A DNA stretch of 64,000 nt from Coprococcus sp. OM04-5BH (GTDB lineage Bacteria > Bacillota > Clostridia > Lachnospirales > Lachnospiraceae), in assembly GCF_003482105.1 (NCBI RefSeq), contig NZ_QULM01000001.1:186001-250000 (forward strand), given 5' to 3'. Below, piece after piece: positions 41,529-57,253 of this stretch (position 1 is its first letter; each line of letters opens with the position of its first letter). The position numbers and the translations under genes were made by a program. A model generated the notes under the pieces. That model did no database searches. It was not told where the DNA came from and saw only the letters and a list, made by a program, of their open reading frames with translations.

Positions 41529-41803
41529 AAAATCCATGCGGTCTTATCTCGAAAAGCTATCATAAACGTTACCTCAGCAGTTAACTCAGCCCAGGCACCC
41601 TCACGGCACACAGGAGATTCCTCTTAGTGCTGCTACGTCTCCGTCCTGACACGGTTCGAAGAGTCCTGTTGCGCAAGACCCAGACATCAACATCACTTAC
41701 TTAGGGCAGCTCTACAATAGACATCCCTCAAAAAGACCATCACCCCCGCTATAGCGGATTGCAGGTACAGGGCGCCGCTACCTCCCCGGTTGCATGGAAA
41801 CTT
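41529..41803 (-). ncRNA. ffs: Signal recognition particle RNA, large Gram-positive type
   Basis: On the minus strand the 5' part reads GGGGAGGTAGCGGCGCCCTG then TACCTGCAATCCGCTATAG, the Alu-domain signature. Near the 3' side TGTCAGG-ACG-GAGA-CGT-AGCAGC is the Ffh-binding domain IV with a GNRA tetraloop (GAGA). The termini pair (TCCATGC with GCATGGA). Length is about 275 bases, as in Bacillus and Clostridium. It follows tadA, a conserved Firmicute neighbour, but dnaX does not follow; an HD gene does. Exact ends are estimated from pairing. Confidence 0.95.
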
Positions 41804-46738: not shown

Positions 46739-47094
46739 GATAAAATTCCTTTCACCCATATATGCTCTATAAATATGGCCTTCATTCCTATTGTATAGAT
46801 TTCCCCGGGAAAAACAAGAAAAAAATGTCCCCGGCAACTGCACCATGGCTTTTCACTCACACATATATCCACGCTCAAATACCTTTTTTTAACCACTCAA
46901 AGGCAAATATTAAGATGTCTTAATATTTTTATAAGAATTTTAACAAGTATTTTTATAAATACTAAATTATTTGAACACAATTTGTACACAAATAATCTGT
47001 ATAGTAATCATTGTAAAGAGTTTTTCATTTATTTGAATCCTCTCTCCCCTCATTTTTTTATACGCAGTGGTGTTGTTGAAACCATTGCACATAC
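46739..47094. other. AT-rich intergenic region with possible small RNA start
   Basis: This region lies between divergent genes and contains no credible ORF. A perfect palindrome (46906-46927) and promoter-like strings are present, for example TTGTAC then TAATCA 17 bases later near 46987-47015 on the plus strand. The terminator at 47095-47137 has no gene before it on that strand. Confidence 0.4.
46906..46927. promoter_or_regulatory. Perfect 10-bp palindrome upstream of the cell-wall-repeat gene
   Basis: AATATTAAGA and TCTTAATATT are separated by two bases, 168 bases before the start of the minus-strand surface protein gene. It resembles a repressor or activator site but no regulator is known. 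Confidence 0.4.
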
Positions 47095-47137
47095 AAAAAG
47101 GCGATAAATCTTTCCCCGGTTTATCGTCCTTTTTTTG
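47095..47137 (+). terminator. Strong terminator with no upstream gene
   Basis: AAAAAGGCGATAAA / TTTATCGTCCTTTTTTT forms a 9-bp core stem with flanking A-T pairs and a T-run on the plus strand. The nearest plus-strand gene begins 460 bases further on, and the gene to the left is on the minus strand and starts at 46738. A short transcript ending here is the simplest explanation. Confidence 0.8.
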
Positions 47138-47542
47138 TTATGGCAACGAGCCAAGTACGACATGCTTGCATGATCGGATTTGGCGACTGCTAATCAGCGG
47201 ATAAAACTTGCAAAGCGTGTTTTATCGCTGTTATGACAACGAGCCAAGTACGATATGCTTGCATGATCGGATTTGGCGACTGCTAATCAGCGGATAAAAC
47301 TTGCAAAGCGTGTTTTATCGCTGTTATGACAACGAGCCAAGTACGATATGCTTGCATGATCGGATTTGGCGACTGCTAATCAGCGGATAAAACTTGCAAA
47401 GCGTGTTTTATCGCTGTTATGACAACGAGCCAAGTACGATATGCTTGCATGATCGGATTTGGCGACTGCTAATCAGCGGATAAAACTTGCAAAGCGTGTT
47501 TTATCGCTGTTATGGCAACGAGCCAAGTACCACATGCTTGCG
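47137..47542. repeat. Tandem array 2: four 93-bp units plus a partial fifth
   Basis: Units start at 47137, 47230, 47323 and 47416; a partial copy runs from 47509. Each unit has two inverted repeats: GCCAA...TTGGC with inner CGAT-ATGC/GCAT-ATCG, and CAGCGgATAAAAC / GTTTTATCGCTG. The three inner units are identical as far as I can see (TTATGACAAC, CGATATGC), while the first and the last partial copy share TTATGGCAAC and differ at the loop. This suggests that the inner units spread from one variant. Confidence 0.95.
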
Positions 47543-47566
47543 TTTTCTTAACAATAGAAGTATACT
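47538..47566 (+). promoter_or_regulatory. Aminotransferase promoter partly inside the last repeat copy
   Basis: TTGCGT (47538-47543) and TATACT (47561-47566) lie 17 bases apart, 35 bases before the ATG. The -35 is made from the CTTGCATG part of the repeat, where the copy breaks off. Confidence 0.55.
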
Positions 47567-47600
47567 TTTTCTAACATTTACATAAAGGAGAGGACGCACA

Positions 47601-48788
47601 ATGATTTCAAAAAAATATGCAGCAATGACCAAGAACACATCCATAATAAGAGAATTTGCCCAGTACGCCGGCAGACGAGCTGCCGAGATAGGTGCTGAGA
47701 ATGTATATAATTTCACCATAGGAAACCCATCCGTACCTACAAGGCCAGAATTTACAGAAGCTATGTTAAGGATCATCAAGGAAACAGATCCTGTAGCCCT
47801 TCACGGATACAGCCCTACACTTACTATCCCATCTGTAAGACAGGCAGTTGCTGACTCCCTCAACAGAAGATTCGGCATGAACTACAAGCTAGAGGATATC
47901 TTCATGACATCTGGTGCCGCCGGGGCCCTTGCACACGCTATCAGATGTGTAACAGAGCCGGGAGATGAGGTAATTACATTTGCCCCTTACTTCCCTGAAT
48001 ACATACCATATGTAGACGGAACCGGAGCAGTCCTTAAGGTTGTACCTGCGGACATCACCTCATTCCAGATCAACTTCGATGCTTTCGAGGAGATGTTGAA
48101 CCCTAATGTACAGGCTATACTTATCAATTCTCCTAACAACCCATCAGGTATTGTTTACTCAACAGAGACCATCACAAGACTTGCCCAGATTCTAAAGGAT
48201 AAGCAGGAAGAGTACGGTCATGATATTTATATCATCTCCGACGAGCCTTACAGAGAGATTGTATTTGCAGGAACCGATTCACCTTTCATATCAAAGTTCT
48301 ACGACAACAGTATCTGCTGTTACTCATTCAGCAAGTCCCTTTCACTTCCTGGCGAAAGAATAGGCTACGTTGCCGTAAATCCTGCCTGCAAGGACGCAGA
48401 GCTTATAATCAACATGTGCGGTCAGGTTTCAAGATTTACAGGCCACAACTGCCCTGCCAGCCTTATACAGCTTGCAGTTGCTGAGGTTCTTGACCTTACA
48501 TCCGATCTTTCAATATACGAGAAGAACAAGAACATCCTCTACAAGGAGCTTACAGCCATGGGTTACGAGTGTGTTGAGCCGGGCGGAACCTTCTACATGT
48601 TCCCTAAGACTCCTATCGCCGATGCAAATGAGTTCTGTAACATGACAGCCCACGAGCTTGACCTTATACTTGTTCCGGGTGACAGCTTCATGTGTCCGGG
48701 ACATATGAGATTGGCTTACTGTACAACAACGGAAATGGTTGAAAGAGCTCTTCCTCGTTTCGAGAAGGCTATCAGGATGTGCAAGTAA
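47601..48788 (+). CDS. Pyridoxal-phosphate-dependent class I aminotransferase
   Basis: The 395-residue fold-type I aminotransferase has TIGNPSVPT, GYSPTLTIPSVRQA, TSGAAGALAHAIR (PLP phosphate loop), INSPNNPSGIVY and SDEPYREI. The PLP Lys is in YSFSKSLSLPGERIGY and the substrate Arg in MRLAYC. It is closest in style to aspartate/aromatic aminotransferases, with the amino donor undetermined. AAAGGAGAGG precedes the ATG. maf follows at 13 bases. Confidence 0.92.
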   Translation: MISKKYAAMTKNTSIIREFAQYAGRRAAEIGAENVYNFTIGNPSVPTRPEFTEAMLRIIKETDPVALHGYSPTLTIPSVRQAVADSLNRRFGMNYKLEDIFMTSGAAGALAHAIRCVTEPGDEVITFAPYFPEYIPYVDGTGAVLKVVPADITSFQINFDAFEEMLNPNVQAILINSPNNPSGIVYSTETITRLAQILKDKQEEYGHDIYIISDEPYREIVFAGTDSPFISKFYDNSICCYSFSKSLSLPGERIGYVAVNPACKDAELIINMCGQVSRFTGHNCPASLIQLAVAEVLDLTSDLSIYEKNKNILYKELTAMGYECVEPGGTFYMFPKTPIADANEFCNMTAHELDLILVPGDSFMCPGHMRLAYCTTTEMVERALPRFEKAIRMCK

Positions 48789-48801
48789 AAGGACAGATAT
48801 T

Positions 48802-49449
48802 ATGATAACAAATATACCTATAATACTGGGATCCGGCTCTCCGAGACGCAGGGAGCTGCTGTCCCAGGGCGGATATAAATACATAGTTATAAAGAGCATG
48901 TGTGACGAGAACACCGAAGTCCTTGCGCCATCAGAATATGTCATGACACTGGCGAAGAGAAAGGCGGATGACGTATTTGCAAGGATAACAGTGGACAGAT
49001 CACTGTTACTTAATGATCCTGATGCGGTCTCCACCTTCGGTCCCCTGACTTCTGATACACCATTTATTGTTATCGGTGCCGATACAGTTGTTTCATTAAA
49101 CGGCCGTATCCTCGGGAAGCCCCATGACCATAATGACGCATACAACACCTTAAGCAGCCTCTCCGGTCAGACCCACAACGTGTATACCGGTGTGAGCATT
49201 GCTTATTTTGACGGACACAGCGGGCACAGCAGGACCTTCTATGAAAGCACTCAGGTCACATTCTATCCTATGACACCGGAGGAGATCTCCTGGTACATAT
49301 CAACAGGTGATGTGGATGACAAAGCCGGAAGCTATGGCATCCAGACCCAGGGTGGTCTGTTCATCAAAAAAATAGAAGGAGACTACAACAATGTGGTAGG
49401 TCTCCCTCTTTCCAGGCTTTATCACGAGCTGAACGCTCTCATTAATTAA
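48802..49449 (+). CDS. maf: Maf-family nucleoside triphosphate pyrophosphatase
   Basis: This 215-residue house-cleaning enzyme hydrolyses dTTP/UTP or modified NTPs. LGSGSPRRRELLSQ, IGADTVVSLNGRILGKP, YTGVSIAYFDG and DDKAGSYGIQTQGGLFI match the family in order; NVVGLPLSRL ends it. Two small insertions (near 70 and 150) lengthen it over the usual 190 residues. AAAAGGA precedes the ATG at 48802. Its stop overlaps the pncB stop on the other strand by a few bases. Confidence 0.93.
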   Translation: MITNIPIILGSGSPRRRELLSQGGYKYIVIKSMCDENTEVLAPSEYVMTLAKRKADDVFARITVDRSLLLNDPDAVSTFGPLTSDTPFIVIGADTVVSLNGRILGKPHDHNDAYNTLSSLSGQTHNVYTGVSIAYFDGHSGHSRTFYESTQVTFYPMTPEEISWYISTGDVDDKAGSYGIQTQGGLFIKKIEGDYNNVVGLPLSRLYHELNALIN

Positions 49450-50660
49450 TTTGCTGTATTATTATCATTCTCCATACGCCACTTGATACATCTGTTGAGA
49501 TAGTGTACATAATCGGGATTTTTGCACATTCCCTTTCCCGGCGTATCTGAGATCTTCGCCACATCCATGCCGTTGCAGGCTGTGGTCTTCATTACTATAT
49601 TAAGAGGTGGTTCGTCGGTATCATTGGAGATATATGTTCCTATACCGAATGCCACCTTTATCTTTCCTACAAAATAATCATGTATGGCTGAGGCCTTCTC
49701 GAAGTCCAGGTTATCACTGAACAACAGGGTCTTGGTTCTGGCATCTATTCCAAGCTTCTCATAGTGAGCTATCATTTTATTTCCCCATTCATACGGATCT
49801 CCGCTGTCATGCCTTACACCGCTGAACAGTGTGGCATAGGTAAGCTGGAAGTCCTTAAGAAAGCAATCTGTGGTTATGGCATCTGTGAGGGCTGTACCAT
49901 TTAACACGCCGTACTCCTTAACCCATGCATCAAGAGAATACCAGTTGGAGTAAGCGGGATTATGCTTGTGATTTCCCTGTCCCACGCACATTATCCACTC
50001 ATGAGCCATGGTTCCAACAGGTGTAAGCCCGAACTTCTTCGCCAGGTACACATTACTTGTACCTACGAACTTGGAAGCAGGGTAACTGTGCTCAGCCAGT
50101 ACCTTTACCGCCATCTCCTGTGCTTCGGCAGAGAGCCTTCTTCTGAGACCGAACTCACTGAAAGCCCCAAGATTAAGCTCACCTGTGGTGACTCTTCTTA
50201 TCTTCTCGTTCAGCCTGTCTTCAAATGACTTCTTAAGCCTGTCATAATTGTAGTTCATCCTGAAGTAAACCTCATTGACTATGGCAAGGGTAGGTATCTC
50301 GTACATTGATGTGTTGAGCCATGTGCCCTTTGTCTCTATGGCAAGTCCGCACTCAGCGTCTTTTGTGATCTCGAAATCCTCGAATCTCGGCTTCCACAGT
50401 CTTAAAAAATCCACATAAGAGCCCTTGATCCACTTTATACCGTCCAGATACTCCAGCTCTTCCTCTGTGAAATTAAGTTTACAGTAGAGCTTTATCTGTC
50501 TTATTATCTCATCTACCATTTCATCAGTAAAATGCACATCTGTATTCCTGCACTTGAAACTCCAGGTGGTCTTATACTCACTGAACTGGTGATATATAGC
50601 CTGTCCCATACTGAATTTGTACATATCTGTCTCAAGCAGACTTGTTATAATCTGATGCAT
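49446..50660 (-). CDS. pncB: Nicotinate phosphoribosyltransferase
   Basis: This 404-residue enzyme makes nicotinate mononucleotide from nicotinate and PRPP for NAD salvage. LLETDMYKFSMGQAIYHQF is the family opening, SEFGLRRRLS and GTSNVYLAKKFGL follow, and TMAHEWIM holds the phosphorylated His; GVRHDSGDPYEW and FGIGTYISND complete the PRPP site. GGAGG precedes the ATG. Its leader carries the recurrent TGATGTTCAA motif and directly upstream lies the 83-bp repeat array. Confidence 0.96.
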   Translation of the reverse strand: MHQIITSLLETDMYKFSMGQAIYHQFSEYKTTWSFKCRNTDVHFTDEMVDEIIRQIKLYCKLNFTEEELEYLDGIKWIKGSYVDFLRLWKPRFEDFEITKDAECGLAIETKGTWLNTSMYEIPTLAIVNEVYFRMNYNYDRLKKSFEDRLNEKIRRVTTGELNLGAFSEFGLRRRLSAEAQEMAVKVLAEHSYPASKFVGTSNVYLAKKFGLTPVGTMAHEWIMCVGQGNHKHNPAYSNWYSLDAWVKEYGVLNGTALTDAITTDCFLKDFQLTYATLFSGVRHDSGDPYEWGNKMIAHYEKLGIDARTKTLLFSDNLDFEKASAIHDYFVGKIKVAFGIGTYISNDTDEPPLNIVMKTTACNGMDVAKISDTPGKGMCKNPDYVHYLNRCIKWRMENDNNTAN

Positions 50661-50675
50661 AACTGTTCCTCCATC

Positions 50676-50706
50676 ATTTGAACATCAGCCCATTTAAAAT
50701 TTGCCT
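50676..50706 (-). promoter_or_regulatory. Recurrent 5'-leader motif, copy 3
   Basis: On the minus strand GGCAAATTTTAAATGGGC then TGATGTTCAAATGA lies 16 bases before the pncB start and leads into its GGAGG site. Confidence 0.5.
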
Positions 50707-50732
50707 TCATAGGTATTGCCCCCTCCCATTAT

Positions 50733-51460
50733 GGGTAACGCCCCCTCGTTTACACTCGGCGGCAAGTCGATTGTGCCATTCAAATATGCGTTTTCAACGC
50801 ATGGGCACAATCTCTGGGTAACGCCCCCTCGTTTACACTCGGCGGCAGGTCGATTGTGCCATTCAAATATGCGTTTTCAACGCATGGGCACAATCTCTGG
50901 GTAACGCCCCCTCGTTTACACTCGGCGGCAGGTCGATTGTGCCATTCAAATATGCGTTTTCAACGCATGGGCACAATCTCTGGGTAACGCCCCCTCGTTT
51001 ACACTCGGCGGCAGGTCGATTGTGCCATTCAAATATGCGTTTTCAACGCATGGGCACAATCTCTGGGTAACGCCCCCTCGTTTACACTCGGCGGCAGGTC
51101 GATTGTGCCATTCAAATATGCGTTTTCAACGCATGGGCACAATCTCTGGGTAACGCCCCCTCGTTTACACTCGGCGGCAGGTCGATTGTGCCATTCAAAT
51201 ATGCGTTTTCAACGCATGGGCACAATCTCTGGGTAACGCCCCCTCGTTTACACTCGGCGGCAGGTCGATTGTGCCATTCAAATATGCGTTTTCAACGCAT
51301 GGGCACAATCTCTGGGTAACGCCCCCTCGTTTACACTCGGCGGCAGGTCGATTGTGCCATTCAAATATGCGTTTTCAACGCATGGGCACAATCTCTCGGC
51401 GGCATATCGTCGGTACCATTTTATATGCATCTACGATGCATGGGTACCTCCTCTCGGCAA
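50733..51460. repeat. Tandem array 3: eight 83-bp units plus a divergent terminal half-unit
   Basis: Units start at 50733, 50816, 50899, 50982, 51065, 51148, 51231 and 51314, and differ visibly only in the first (GGCAAGTCG instead of GGCAGGTCG). Each contains the hairpin GATTGTGCC..ATGCGTT-TTC-AACGCAT..GGCACAATC and a GC-rich GCCCCC / GGCGGC pair. From 51397 a half-unit with GGCATATCGTCGGTACC and ATGCAT/ATGCAT, GGTACC/GGTACC arms ends the array. The stem is different but the fold is preserved. Confidence 0.96.
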
Positions 51461-51475
51461 AGGGCTGACGCTGCA

Positions 51476-51502
51476 TGTCAAGTTTTCATATAAAACTTGA
51501 CA
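51476..51502. repeat. Perfect 11-bp inverted repeat after array 3
   Basis: TGTCAAGTTTT and AAAACTTGACA surround a 5-base loop, 75 bases after the degV stop. There is no T-run on the minus strand, so it is not a standard terminator. A GGGATATCCC palindrome lies a little further right (near 51517). Confidence 0.7.
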
Positions 51503-51575
51503 CAACTGATCGAACATCAACGGGATATCCCACTGAGGGTATTCGTCTTATGTATCTTATTTTTCGGATCACTTT

Positions 51576-52451
51576 CTACAGATCGTCCCTCACGGTAAAT
51601 ATCACACCGACAACCTTCTCACCGGCATTGGAAGCAATCTCTGCTCCTATCTGGAAATAATCTGTAGGGCCGTATCCCATCTTCTCTGTCATCTTTGCTT
51701 CAAGCTCATCGCGGCATACTGTATCCATGCCATACACAAGCTGATATGATGAACCCGGCTTAATATCTGCCATGGTCATCTCCACTATCTTTGAGACAAG
51801 CTTCTTCTCGCCACGGCACTTGGCTGCTGTTGCTATGGTATTGTCACATATCCTCATAACAGGCTTCACGCCCAGCGCGTCACCCACCAGTGCTGCCGCT
51901 GTAGGTATACGTCCTGACTTGGCAGCATACTTAAGATTATATATACCGAAATAAATCCTTCTCTTACCAAGTATGTCCTTAAGGTAGGCATTTATACTGT
52001 CAATATCTTCTCCCGCCTTCACCATACGGGCTGCCTCCATAACCGGATAGCCGTACATTCCTGTGTATCCGATACCGTCATAGCAGTAGATATTGAATCT
52101 GCCCTTTGCCTCCGGCACTTCATCATAGAAGTCCTCTATAGCCATCACGGAATTGTTATATGTGGCTGAACCTTCCTTGTTTATACTTACATATACAATG
52201 TCAGTGTAACCTTCCTCATAAAATCTCTTGTAAACCTCACAGAAGCTATAGCTTGTGATCTGGGAGGTCTTAGGAATCTCGTCATATCTGTGCATAAGCT
52301 CATAAAATCCCGCATTGTCGAAATCCACTCTGCTGGTAAATTCCCTGTTGCCTATTACCACTGAAAATGAAAGTATCTCTATATCCAGTTCCTTCTCTAT
52401 CTCCGGAAGTATATCACTTGCCGAGTCAGTTATAATCTTGATCTTGCTCAT
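51576..52451 (-). CDS. DegV-family fatty-acid-binding protein
   Basis: The 291-residue protein has the two-domain DegV fold: IITDSASDI at the start, FTSRVDFDNAGFYELM, KTSQITSYSF, VYVSINKEGSATYNNS and YAAKSGRI. Family members (FakB) hold a fatty acid for the kinase FakA; no fakA is in view. It is followed on its 3' side by array 3. The ribosome binding site is modest. Confidence 0.92.
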   Translation of the reverse strand: MSKIKIITDSASDILPEIEKELDIEILSFSVVIGNREFTSRVDFDNAGFYELMHRYDEIPKTSQITSYSFCEVYKRFYEEGYTDIVYVSINKEGSATYNNSVMAIEDFYDEVPEAKGRFNIYCYDGIGYTGMYGYPVMEAARMVKAGEDIDSINAYLKDILGKRRIYFGIYNLKYAAKSGRIPTAAALVGDALGVKPVMRICDNTIATAAKCRGEKKLVSKIVEMTMADIKPGSSYQLVYGMDTVCRDELEAKMTEKMGYGPTDYFQIGAEIASNAGEKVVGVIFTVRDDL

Positions 52452-57158: not shown

Positions 57159-57253
57159 GACATCATTACAATAAATAGAGCAGCAACCATTTAAAATTGC
57201 CTACGGCAAGGGTTGCTGCAGCGTAACGATGTCAGAGACATCATTACAATAAA
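57159..57253. repeat. Solitary hairpin element between direct repeats
   Basis: The 17-base string GACATCATTACAATAAA occurs at 57159-57175 and 57237-57253, 78 bases apart. Between the copies lies GCAGCAACC-ATTTAAAA-TTGCC-TAC-GGCAA-G-GGTTGCTGC. Its layout (CC then ATTT, inner stem, GG at the right arm) matches the arrays at 1-208 and 50733-51460, although the stem bases differ. A second small hairpin GATGTC-AGA-GACATC ends it. Confidence 0.75.

Follow-up and report, generated by a model that had tools for sequence, protein, structure and literature searches.

GA-cis, a structured RNA motif of Coprococcus and its relatives, as a probable modular mobile element at ribosome-binding sites

The GA-cis motif (Rfam RF02987) reportedly stems from the 2017 work on '224 candidate structured RNAs', and its name implies cis-regulation. 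Among small dispersed repeats, the BOX elements of Streptococcus pneumoniae are presented, in the available part of their description, as composite intergenic repeats (boxA, boxB and boxC) with variable tandem middle modules and nested insertions, which are transcribed into hairpins, linked to ISSpn2 ends and thought to be parasitic (PMC3049150). The stems of the CGTC-tagged REPs measure 8-9 bp, their first two pairs being made up of A and T; these repeats mostly occur as head-to-head pairs and are dispersed with no dedicated transposase known, and the accessible portion of the source names five other phyla and makes no mention of Firmicutes (PMC3733652).

As far as the available text on BOX allows a comparison, GA-cis shares with it a modular plan (the sole feature compared) and nested insertion, but the modules of GA-cis differ and it sits at Shine-Dalgarno sequences. 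GA-cis is also dispersed in the manner of the CGTC-tagged REPs and, like them, has no known dedicated transposase; on the other strand its main helix P1 is likewise palindromic and bears CGTC at one of its ends. In contrast to the stems set out in the accessible portion of that source, however, the GA-cis stem starts with G-C pairs and carries a bulge. Small dispersed hairpins with a bulge are common to GA-cis and the REP/RAYT system as covered in the excerpt available (PMC8266576), but GA-cis is without the GTAG tag and without a flanking RAYT gene in the loci scanned. The elements described below are the same as RF02987 in sequence and in two-hairpin structure. To the cis-regulation implied by the family name we add traits of a mobile repeat: copies apparently inserted into Shine-Dalgarno sequences and, at matched sites, found in some genomes but not in others, P2 hairpins that can be exchanged or nested, arrays and solo remnants. 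We consider GA-cis likely to be a non-autonomous mobile element, miniature and modular, of the BOX/REP kind found at ribosome-binding sites. As far as we have searched, in a literature with most subscription journals outside it, such behaviour has not been described.

GA-cis copies in the window and their neighbours

Scanning the window, that is, the whole 64-kb stretch of Coprococcus sp. OM04-5BH DNA under analysis, against Rfam yielded seven non-overlapping RF02987 matches, all on the (-) strand, with scores of 36.8-77.9 bits (gathering cut-off 34.7 bits). Array 1 accounts for two of them and array 3 for four, and the seventh is at 51381-51455; alternate overlapping array units are absent from the seven matches listed. 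Array 1 (6-215, (-) strand) consists of two 104-base units (39.2 and 36.8 bits), whose second hairpin is of the type termed B (GTCATAG...CTATGAC), common to relatives. Array 3 (50730-51397, (-) strand) has eight 83-base units, four of which scored 77.0-77.9 bits; Tandem Repeats Finder placed it at 50732-51396, with 8.0 copies of 83 bases and 99% matches. Each unit combines P1 (GATTGTGCC/GGCACAATC) with a P2 of type A. Adjoining the array is the 5' part of a further copy (51395-51455, (-) strand, RF02987 45.2 bits), in which P1 arms at 51443-51448 and 51412-51417 are followed by the 5' half of P2 (TGCCGCCGAG). From this side GGTACCGACGATATGCCGCCGAG at 51395-51417 runs into array 3, and at the opposite end stands GGGAGGGGGCAATACC (50712-50727, (-) strand), which would supply the tail of the same copy and the 3' half of its P2. 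With sequences of an outer copy thus read at both ends of array 3, an older GA-cis copy appears to carry this array within its P2 loop.

The preliminary description, from which the (-) strand and the second hairpin of this motif already held in Rfam were missing, had joined four stem pairs into a single hairpin family and noted a common sequence before some of them. All four pairs are present in the sequence, with the left GGTACC arm off by one (correctly 51412-51417, pairing with 51443-51448), and the common sequence CATATCGTCGG was confirmed three times in the window, preceding both array-1 stems and the 51.4-kb stem. A single family holds for array 1, array 3 and the 51.4-kb element, which are RF02987 matches, but not for the fourth member, the hairpin at 57 kb (57180-57219). 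The latter gave no match in a scan of the whole window with E up to 10. When 601 bases were searched with filters off, it scored 13.9 bits over positions 8-44 of 85 in our own model, comparable to two matches within coding sequences of the same window (15.1 and 13.8 bits), and the base of its stem is without the G.A motif. Its membership in GA-cis is unproved, the score being at the level of chance matches. This hairpin sits between co-directional genes, with a 17-base direct repeat GACATCATTACAATAAA at both sides (57161-57253); on the (-) strand GATGTC...GACATC and GTTAC stand ahead of it, resembling a worn array unit.

Downstream of array 3 lies a nicotinate phosphoribosyltransferase (NAPRT) gene (49446-50660, (-) strand; NF003704, 480.3 bits; TIGR01514, 409.5 bits), whose ribosome-binding site and start codon (GATGGAGGAACAGTTATG) are at 50658-50675 on the (-) strand and whose best match is 85% identical in a Clostridiales MAG, followed by many Lachnospiraceae. 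The upstream gene is co-directional and belongs to the DegV family (51576-52451, (-) strand; TIGR00762, 204.9 bits). The GA-cis copies of the window are at least 50 nt away from a gene start, and an empty counterpart site for them was not found. Twelve of the 80 NAPRT loci, picked for the presence of GA-cis in their genomes, gave no GA-cis match, so the element is not tied to the NAPRT gene. A derivation of the gene start in the window from the element was also considered, but the likeness between them (common GGAGG.AC and ATGCATC) is too short for this claim. Elsewhere in the window, another tandem array with a 93-base period (47136-47541, 4.4 copies, 98% matches) stands ahead of an aminotransferase gene and had no Rfam match when 46850-51600 was scanned with E up to 0.1, and a Bacterial large SRP RNA lies at 41534-41797 on the (-) strand (183.6 bits).

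Fold, covariation and exchangeable modules

GA-cis was detected in 12 of 40 genomes reached via NAPRT loci and in at least 29 of 195 relatives of G014 (at least 27 above the cut-off), as opposed to 0 of 14 control genomes. Copies are scattered through the genome, with a maximum of 22 in one genome. Plasmids and phages gave no match to one 102-base query, nor did viral contigs in one exact 25-base scan. The copy set analysed below comprises 137 of the matches listed, with their surroundings, from 20 genomes; 130 of these are at or above the cut-off.

The earlier proposal that paired bases change on both sides was borne out for three of the four elements. In a MAFFT alignment of 63 copies (A1), two of them from the window, which served as the basis of covariance model R1, 86.1% of the cells were paired compared with 37.7-46.9% when the partner was shifted by 1-3 columns, and both-sided change was seen in 18 of 21 pairs. 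The covariation score was 0.324 against 0.127 in shuffles that leave the relatedness of the copies in place, and none of 500 shuffles matched the observed value in any of five measures. A second alignment of 106 distinct rows (A2), fitted to the model structure and therefore favouring structure by construction, had 93.6% of cells paired and 20 of 21 pairs with both-sided change, again with 0 of 500 shuffles as high. Of 135 distinct copies, 106 have two successive G.A oppositions beside the main P1 helix (three more yielded no 5-pair helix), and the positions that separate the two G.A tandems co-vary, G with C, GG with CC and CT with AG. In the window, array 1 and the 51.4-kb copy have this usual form, whereas the standard helix of array 3 is longer, with the outer G.A pair closing it. 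Compensated differences in P1 or P2 were also found between genomes at one and the same junction (L151/L155, L085/L086 and L147/L161/L163), indicating that the folding was kept in place, via selection or palindrome correction. Selection on structure, which the preliminary description had put forward, is accordingly likely but unproved, since palindrome correction in replication also gives both-sided change.

The plan of P1 is constant, whereas three or more kinds of P2 occur. One is type A (GCCGCCGA...GAGGGGGC); type B (GTCAT...ATGAC), which encloses a further hairpin, is found in array 1 of the window and in relatives, and G148 has a plain hairpin (GCCACGATTT...). Type B is nested within type A in L117, L156, L157 and L160, in the position that array 3 would occupy in the older copy of the window. 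The cores of G148 (L182-L190) are embedded in a longer element whose inverted ends (ACTCGAGCGGAGTAAAAAAATGATACATCTG...) are imperfect, exceed every shuffle and are clear in 5 of 11 copies of the longer form; these longer elements are located between genes of all orientations. No terminal inverted repeats were seen in the short GA-cis form.

Occupied sites, empty sites and the Shine-Dalgarno sequence

Comparison of related genomes showed that GA-cis copies are dispersed and are present or absent at matched gene junctions. In G024, five copies with identical cores stand ahead of five different genes. At flgK-flgL, where the flanks of G024 and its sister G030 match at 94% identity across 1431 and 630 bases, TATAGGAGGAACCATTATG occurs once in G030 and twice around the element in G024. 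The same holds for AGGAGGAA at a trpC-like gene and for AGGAG at an esterase-like gene, and the target direct repeats at the three sites are 5, 8 and 19 bases long. At the trpC-like and esterase-like sites, the left core is followed by bases of the element and the right core by native ones. Among the genomes listed for further junctions, whose gene order may differ in distant relatives, copies were present at trmL in G014 (two units) and G018 out of 20, with a remnant in G019 and a repeat of 16-17 bases, at thyA-dhfR in 2 of 20, at an aldolase gene in 1 of 9, at flgL in 1 of 11 (with a remnant in G011), at the L127 gene in 1 of 7 (one of the seven stops short of the gene start) and at a peroxidase-like gene in 1 of 4. 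Near-identical dispersed copies, matched sites without a copy and a target direct repeat are features of MITEs in the wide sense, and all three are found here. Shrunken remnants of GA-cis include L216 at trmL (TGAGGGGGCGTCACCCG) and L375 at flgL (TAGGGGGCATTACATTAG).

The first arm of a copy resembles its own downstream flank more than it does other flanks (mean score 8.84; best of 5000 permutations 7.78), and 28 of 125 own pairs fell within the top 5% of all pairs, longer direct repeats being a minority. The agreement of arms with downstream repeats, together with the 16-17-base repeat at trmL, had once favoured the idea that the target is copied into P1 on insertion; this idea was weakened, and then set aside, because the five identical copies carry one arm into different targets.

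The setting of the copies was judged by a simple ORF caller. Between two co-directional ORFs lie 73 of the 137 copies, 33 are in other or incomplete intergenic positions and 31 overlap a called ORF, part of these overlaps being doubtful owing to frames open at contig ends. A start codon follows within 45 nt at 87 of 125 copies compared with 19 of 125 on the antisense side taken as a control, and its distance is 12-20 nt in 51 of the 87; the other 38 copies have no start codon within this range. A Shine-Dalgarno core was found near the 3' end of 67 of 129 copies (3 of 130 in the control), with 62 of 129 lacking it there, and at both ends of 55 of 130. Of 128 leading copies, 97 have a co-directional upstream stop codon nearby, which in 46 of the 97 ends within element bases 1-8; stops at or near the element start are TAG in 34 of 50 compared with 116 of 557 in the background. 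Comparison of the sites places a copy within a gene's Shine-Dalgarno sequence, with AGGAG or a longer stretch on both sides. This position fits both the upstream stop, often found in the first bases of the copy, and the ribosome-binding site retained downstream.

The genes downstream of the copies share no function. A survey of 70 of the 87 downstream proteins (the 17 omitted were mostly the same junction in another genome) gave matches to 130 Pfam families, the commonest of which has three members, and this absence of a theme argues against a ligand-type switch. P1 contains a Shine-Dalgarno sequence, and 61 distinct copies have an AUG there as well. Translation of a leader peptide from this AUG was rejected, as its frame is hardly more open (37 of 61) than another frame (34 of 61).

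There are 41 occurrences of the sequence GGAGGAACCATTATG, spread over 10 of 40 genomes, and these ten belong to the 16 with GA-cis; it is absent from the 24 genomes without GA-cis, and the reversed control gave no occurrence. Thirteen of its places lie beyond the listed copies. Ten of them provide an ORF (60-501 residues) with its start and ribosome-binding site in the absence of an element, and the other three comprise one place after an array, one after a P2-like remnant and one internally deleted copy. The solo sites carry the first arm of the element as the predicted ribosome-binding site of the gene. At two of them, L421 and L405, the first codons match the element loop (ATGCGAAGC and ATGCGAAGAATTCAG, respectively), from which we infer that these starts are deletion scars; in part, the solo sites could also be targets chosen by likeness.

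Proposed mobility and competing explanations

As transcript or single strand, copies fold into a pair of hairpins, P1 and P2, the second of which can be exchanged. In the proposed mechanism, some enzyme would insert the element, duplicating its Shine-Dalgarno target. Arrays would grow via unequal exchange between direct repeats, and copies would be lost by deletion, which may leave the AGGAGG...ATG of the element as a new gene start. Between the degV-type and NAPRT genes of the window, the eight-unit array appears to have been taken up by the P2 loop of an older copy.

A search of Y1 transposase genes in 40 genomes and of the flanks scanned found no mobilising enzyme for GA-cis. Y1 transposase genes are present in 25 of the 40 genomes, and RAYT-like genes (longer Y1 genes, sorted by length and score) in 12 of 16 genomes with GA-cis compared with 3 of 24 others, uncorrected for kinship. 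Searching with R1 near transposase genes revealed one copy, 0.7 kb from a RAYT-like match in G019, and no others in the 30 and 20 loci scanned. G024, with its five identical cores, has IS200-type matches only, and G030 and G001 have none. RAYT and IS200 were rejected as mobilisers on the basis of this single nearby copy, the differing RAYT flanks and the matches in these three genomes. The RAYT-like genes (L339, L343, L348 and others) are flanked by palindromes of their own (e.g. GAGCCCTA...TAGGGCTC), unlike GA-cis.

Several observations speak against mobility: the failure of this search to find an enzyme, the copies with no start codon within 45 nt or no core at the 3' end, the minority of longer direct repeats, and the distance of the window's own copies from the gene start with no empty site for them. 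In addition, a clean deletion between direct repeats can likewise produce an empty site, and copies kept at one junction in several genomes with compensated stems fit function as well. A rival reading makes GA-cis a cis-regulatory RNA leader, which would sense something or couple the translation of two genes and would have been spread by duplication and kept by selection. The strand-specific position before genes, the strong covariation, the compensated stems at shared junctions and the Shine-Dalgarno sequence and AUG within P1 would all suit such a leader, but we regard it as unlikely given 70 downstream genes without a functional theme, close relatives without a copy at the same junction, the swapping of P2 for unrelated hairpins, a G148 subfamily lying between genes of all orientations and an internal AUG frame with no sign of a leader peptide.

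A different question is whether the both-sided changes arise from mutation, with template switching correcting imperfect palindromes without selection. The arms are near-perfect in old as in young copies, and arms and direct repeats swap sequence (the L155 arm equals its downstream repeat, that of L151 does not), as such correction would predict; it should, however, convert G.A oppositions to standard pairs, whereas two in a row are kept in most copies, as are the second hairpin and the bulge in the 3' strand of P1, which makes this origin doubtful. For array 3, units that are 99% alike with no gene inside would be expected of an ordinary tandem repeat produced by slippage with no tie to mobility, a highly improbable origin for a unit that is dispersed, alone or in pairs, in related genomes. 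The preferred reading, a mobile element at ribosome-binding sites, might be extended by treating the 3' arm of P1 as a guide that pairs with the target Shine-Dalgarno sequence, with tandem G.A for the GAGGA core and standard pairs elsewhere. This extension is quite unlikely; if true, P1 of an inserted copy would be the guide-target duplex, arm changes would retarget variants, and lost copies would leave an element-derived ribosome-binding site and first codons.

If GA-cis is mobile, a family filed as regulatory RNA would be a mobile repeat and covariation alone would be no proof of a regulatory role, which would bear on the interpretation of other orphan RNA motifs. An element that inserts at ribosome-binding sites and leaves the genes on either side readable would offer repeats a direct route to rewrite translation signals, and its remnants may turn into gene starts. 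GA-cis would also represent a natural model of evolutionarily kept tandem G.A pairs.
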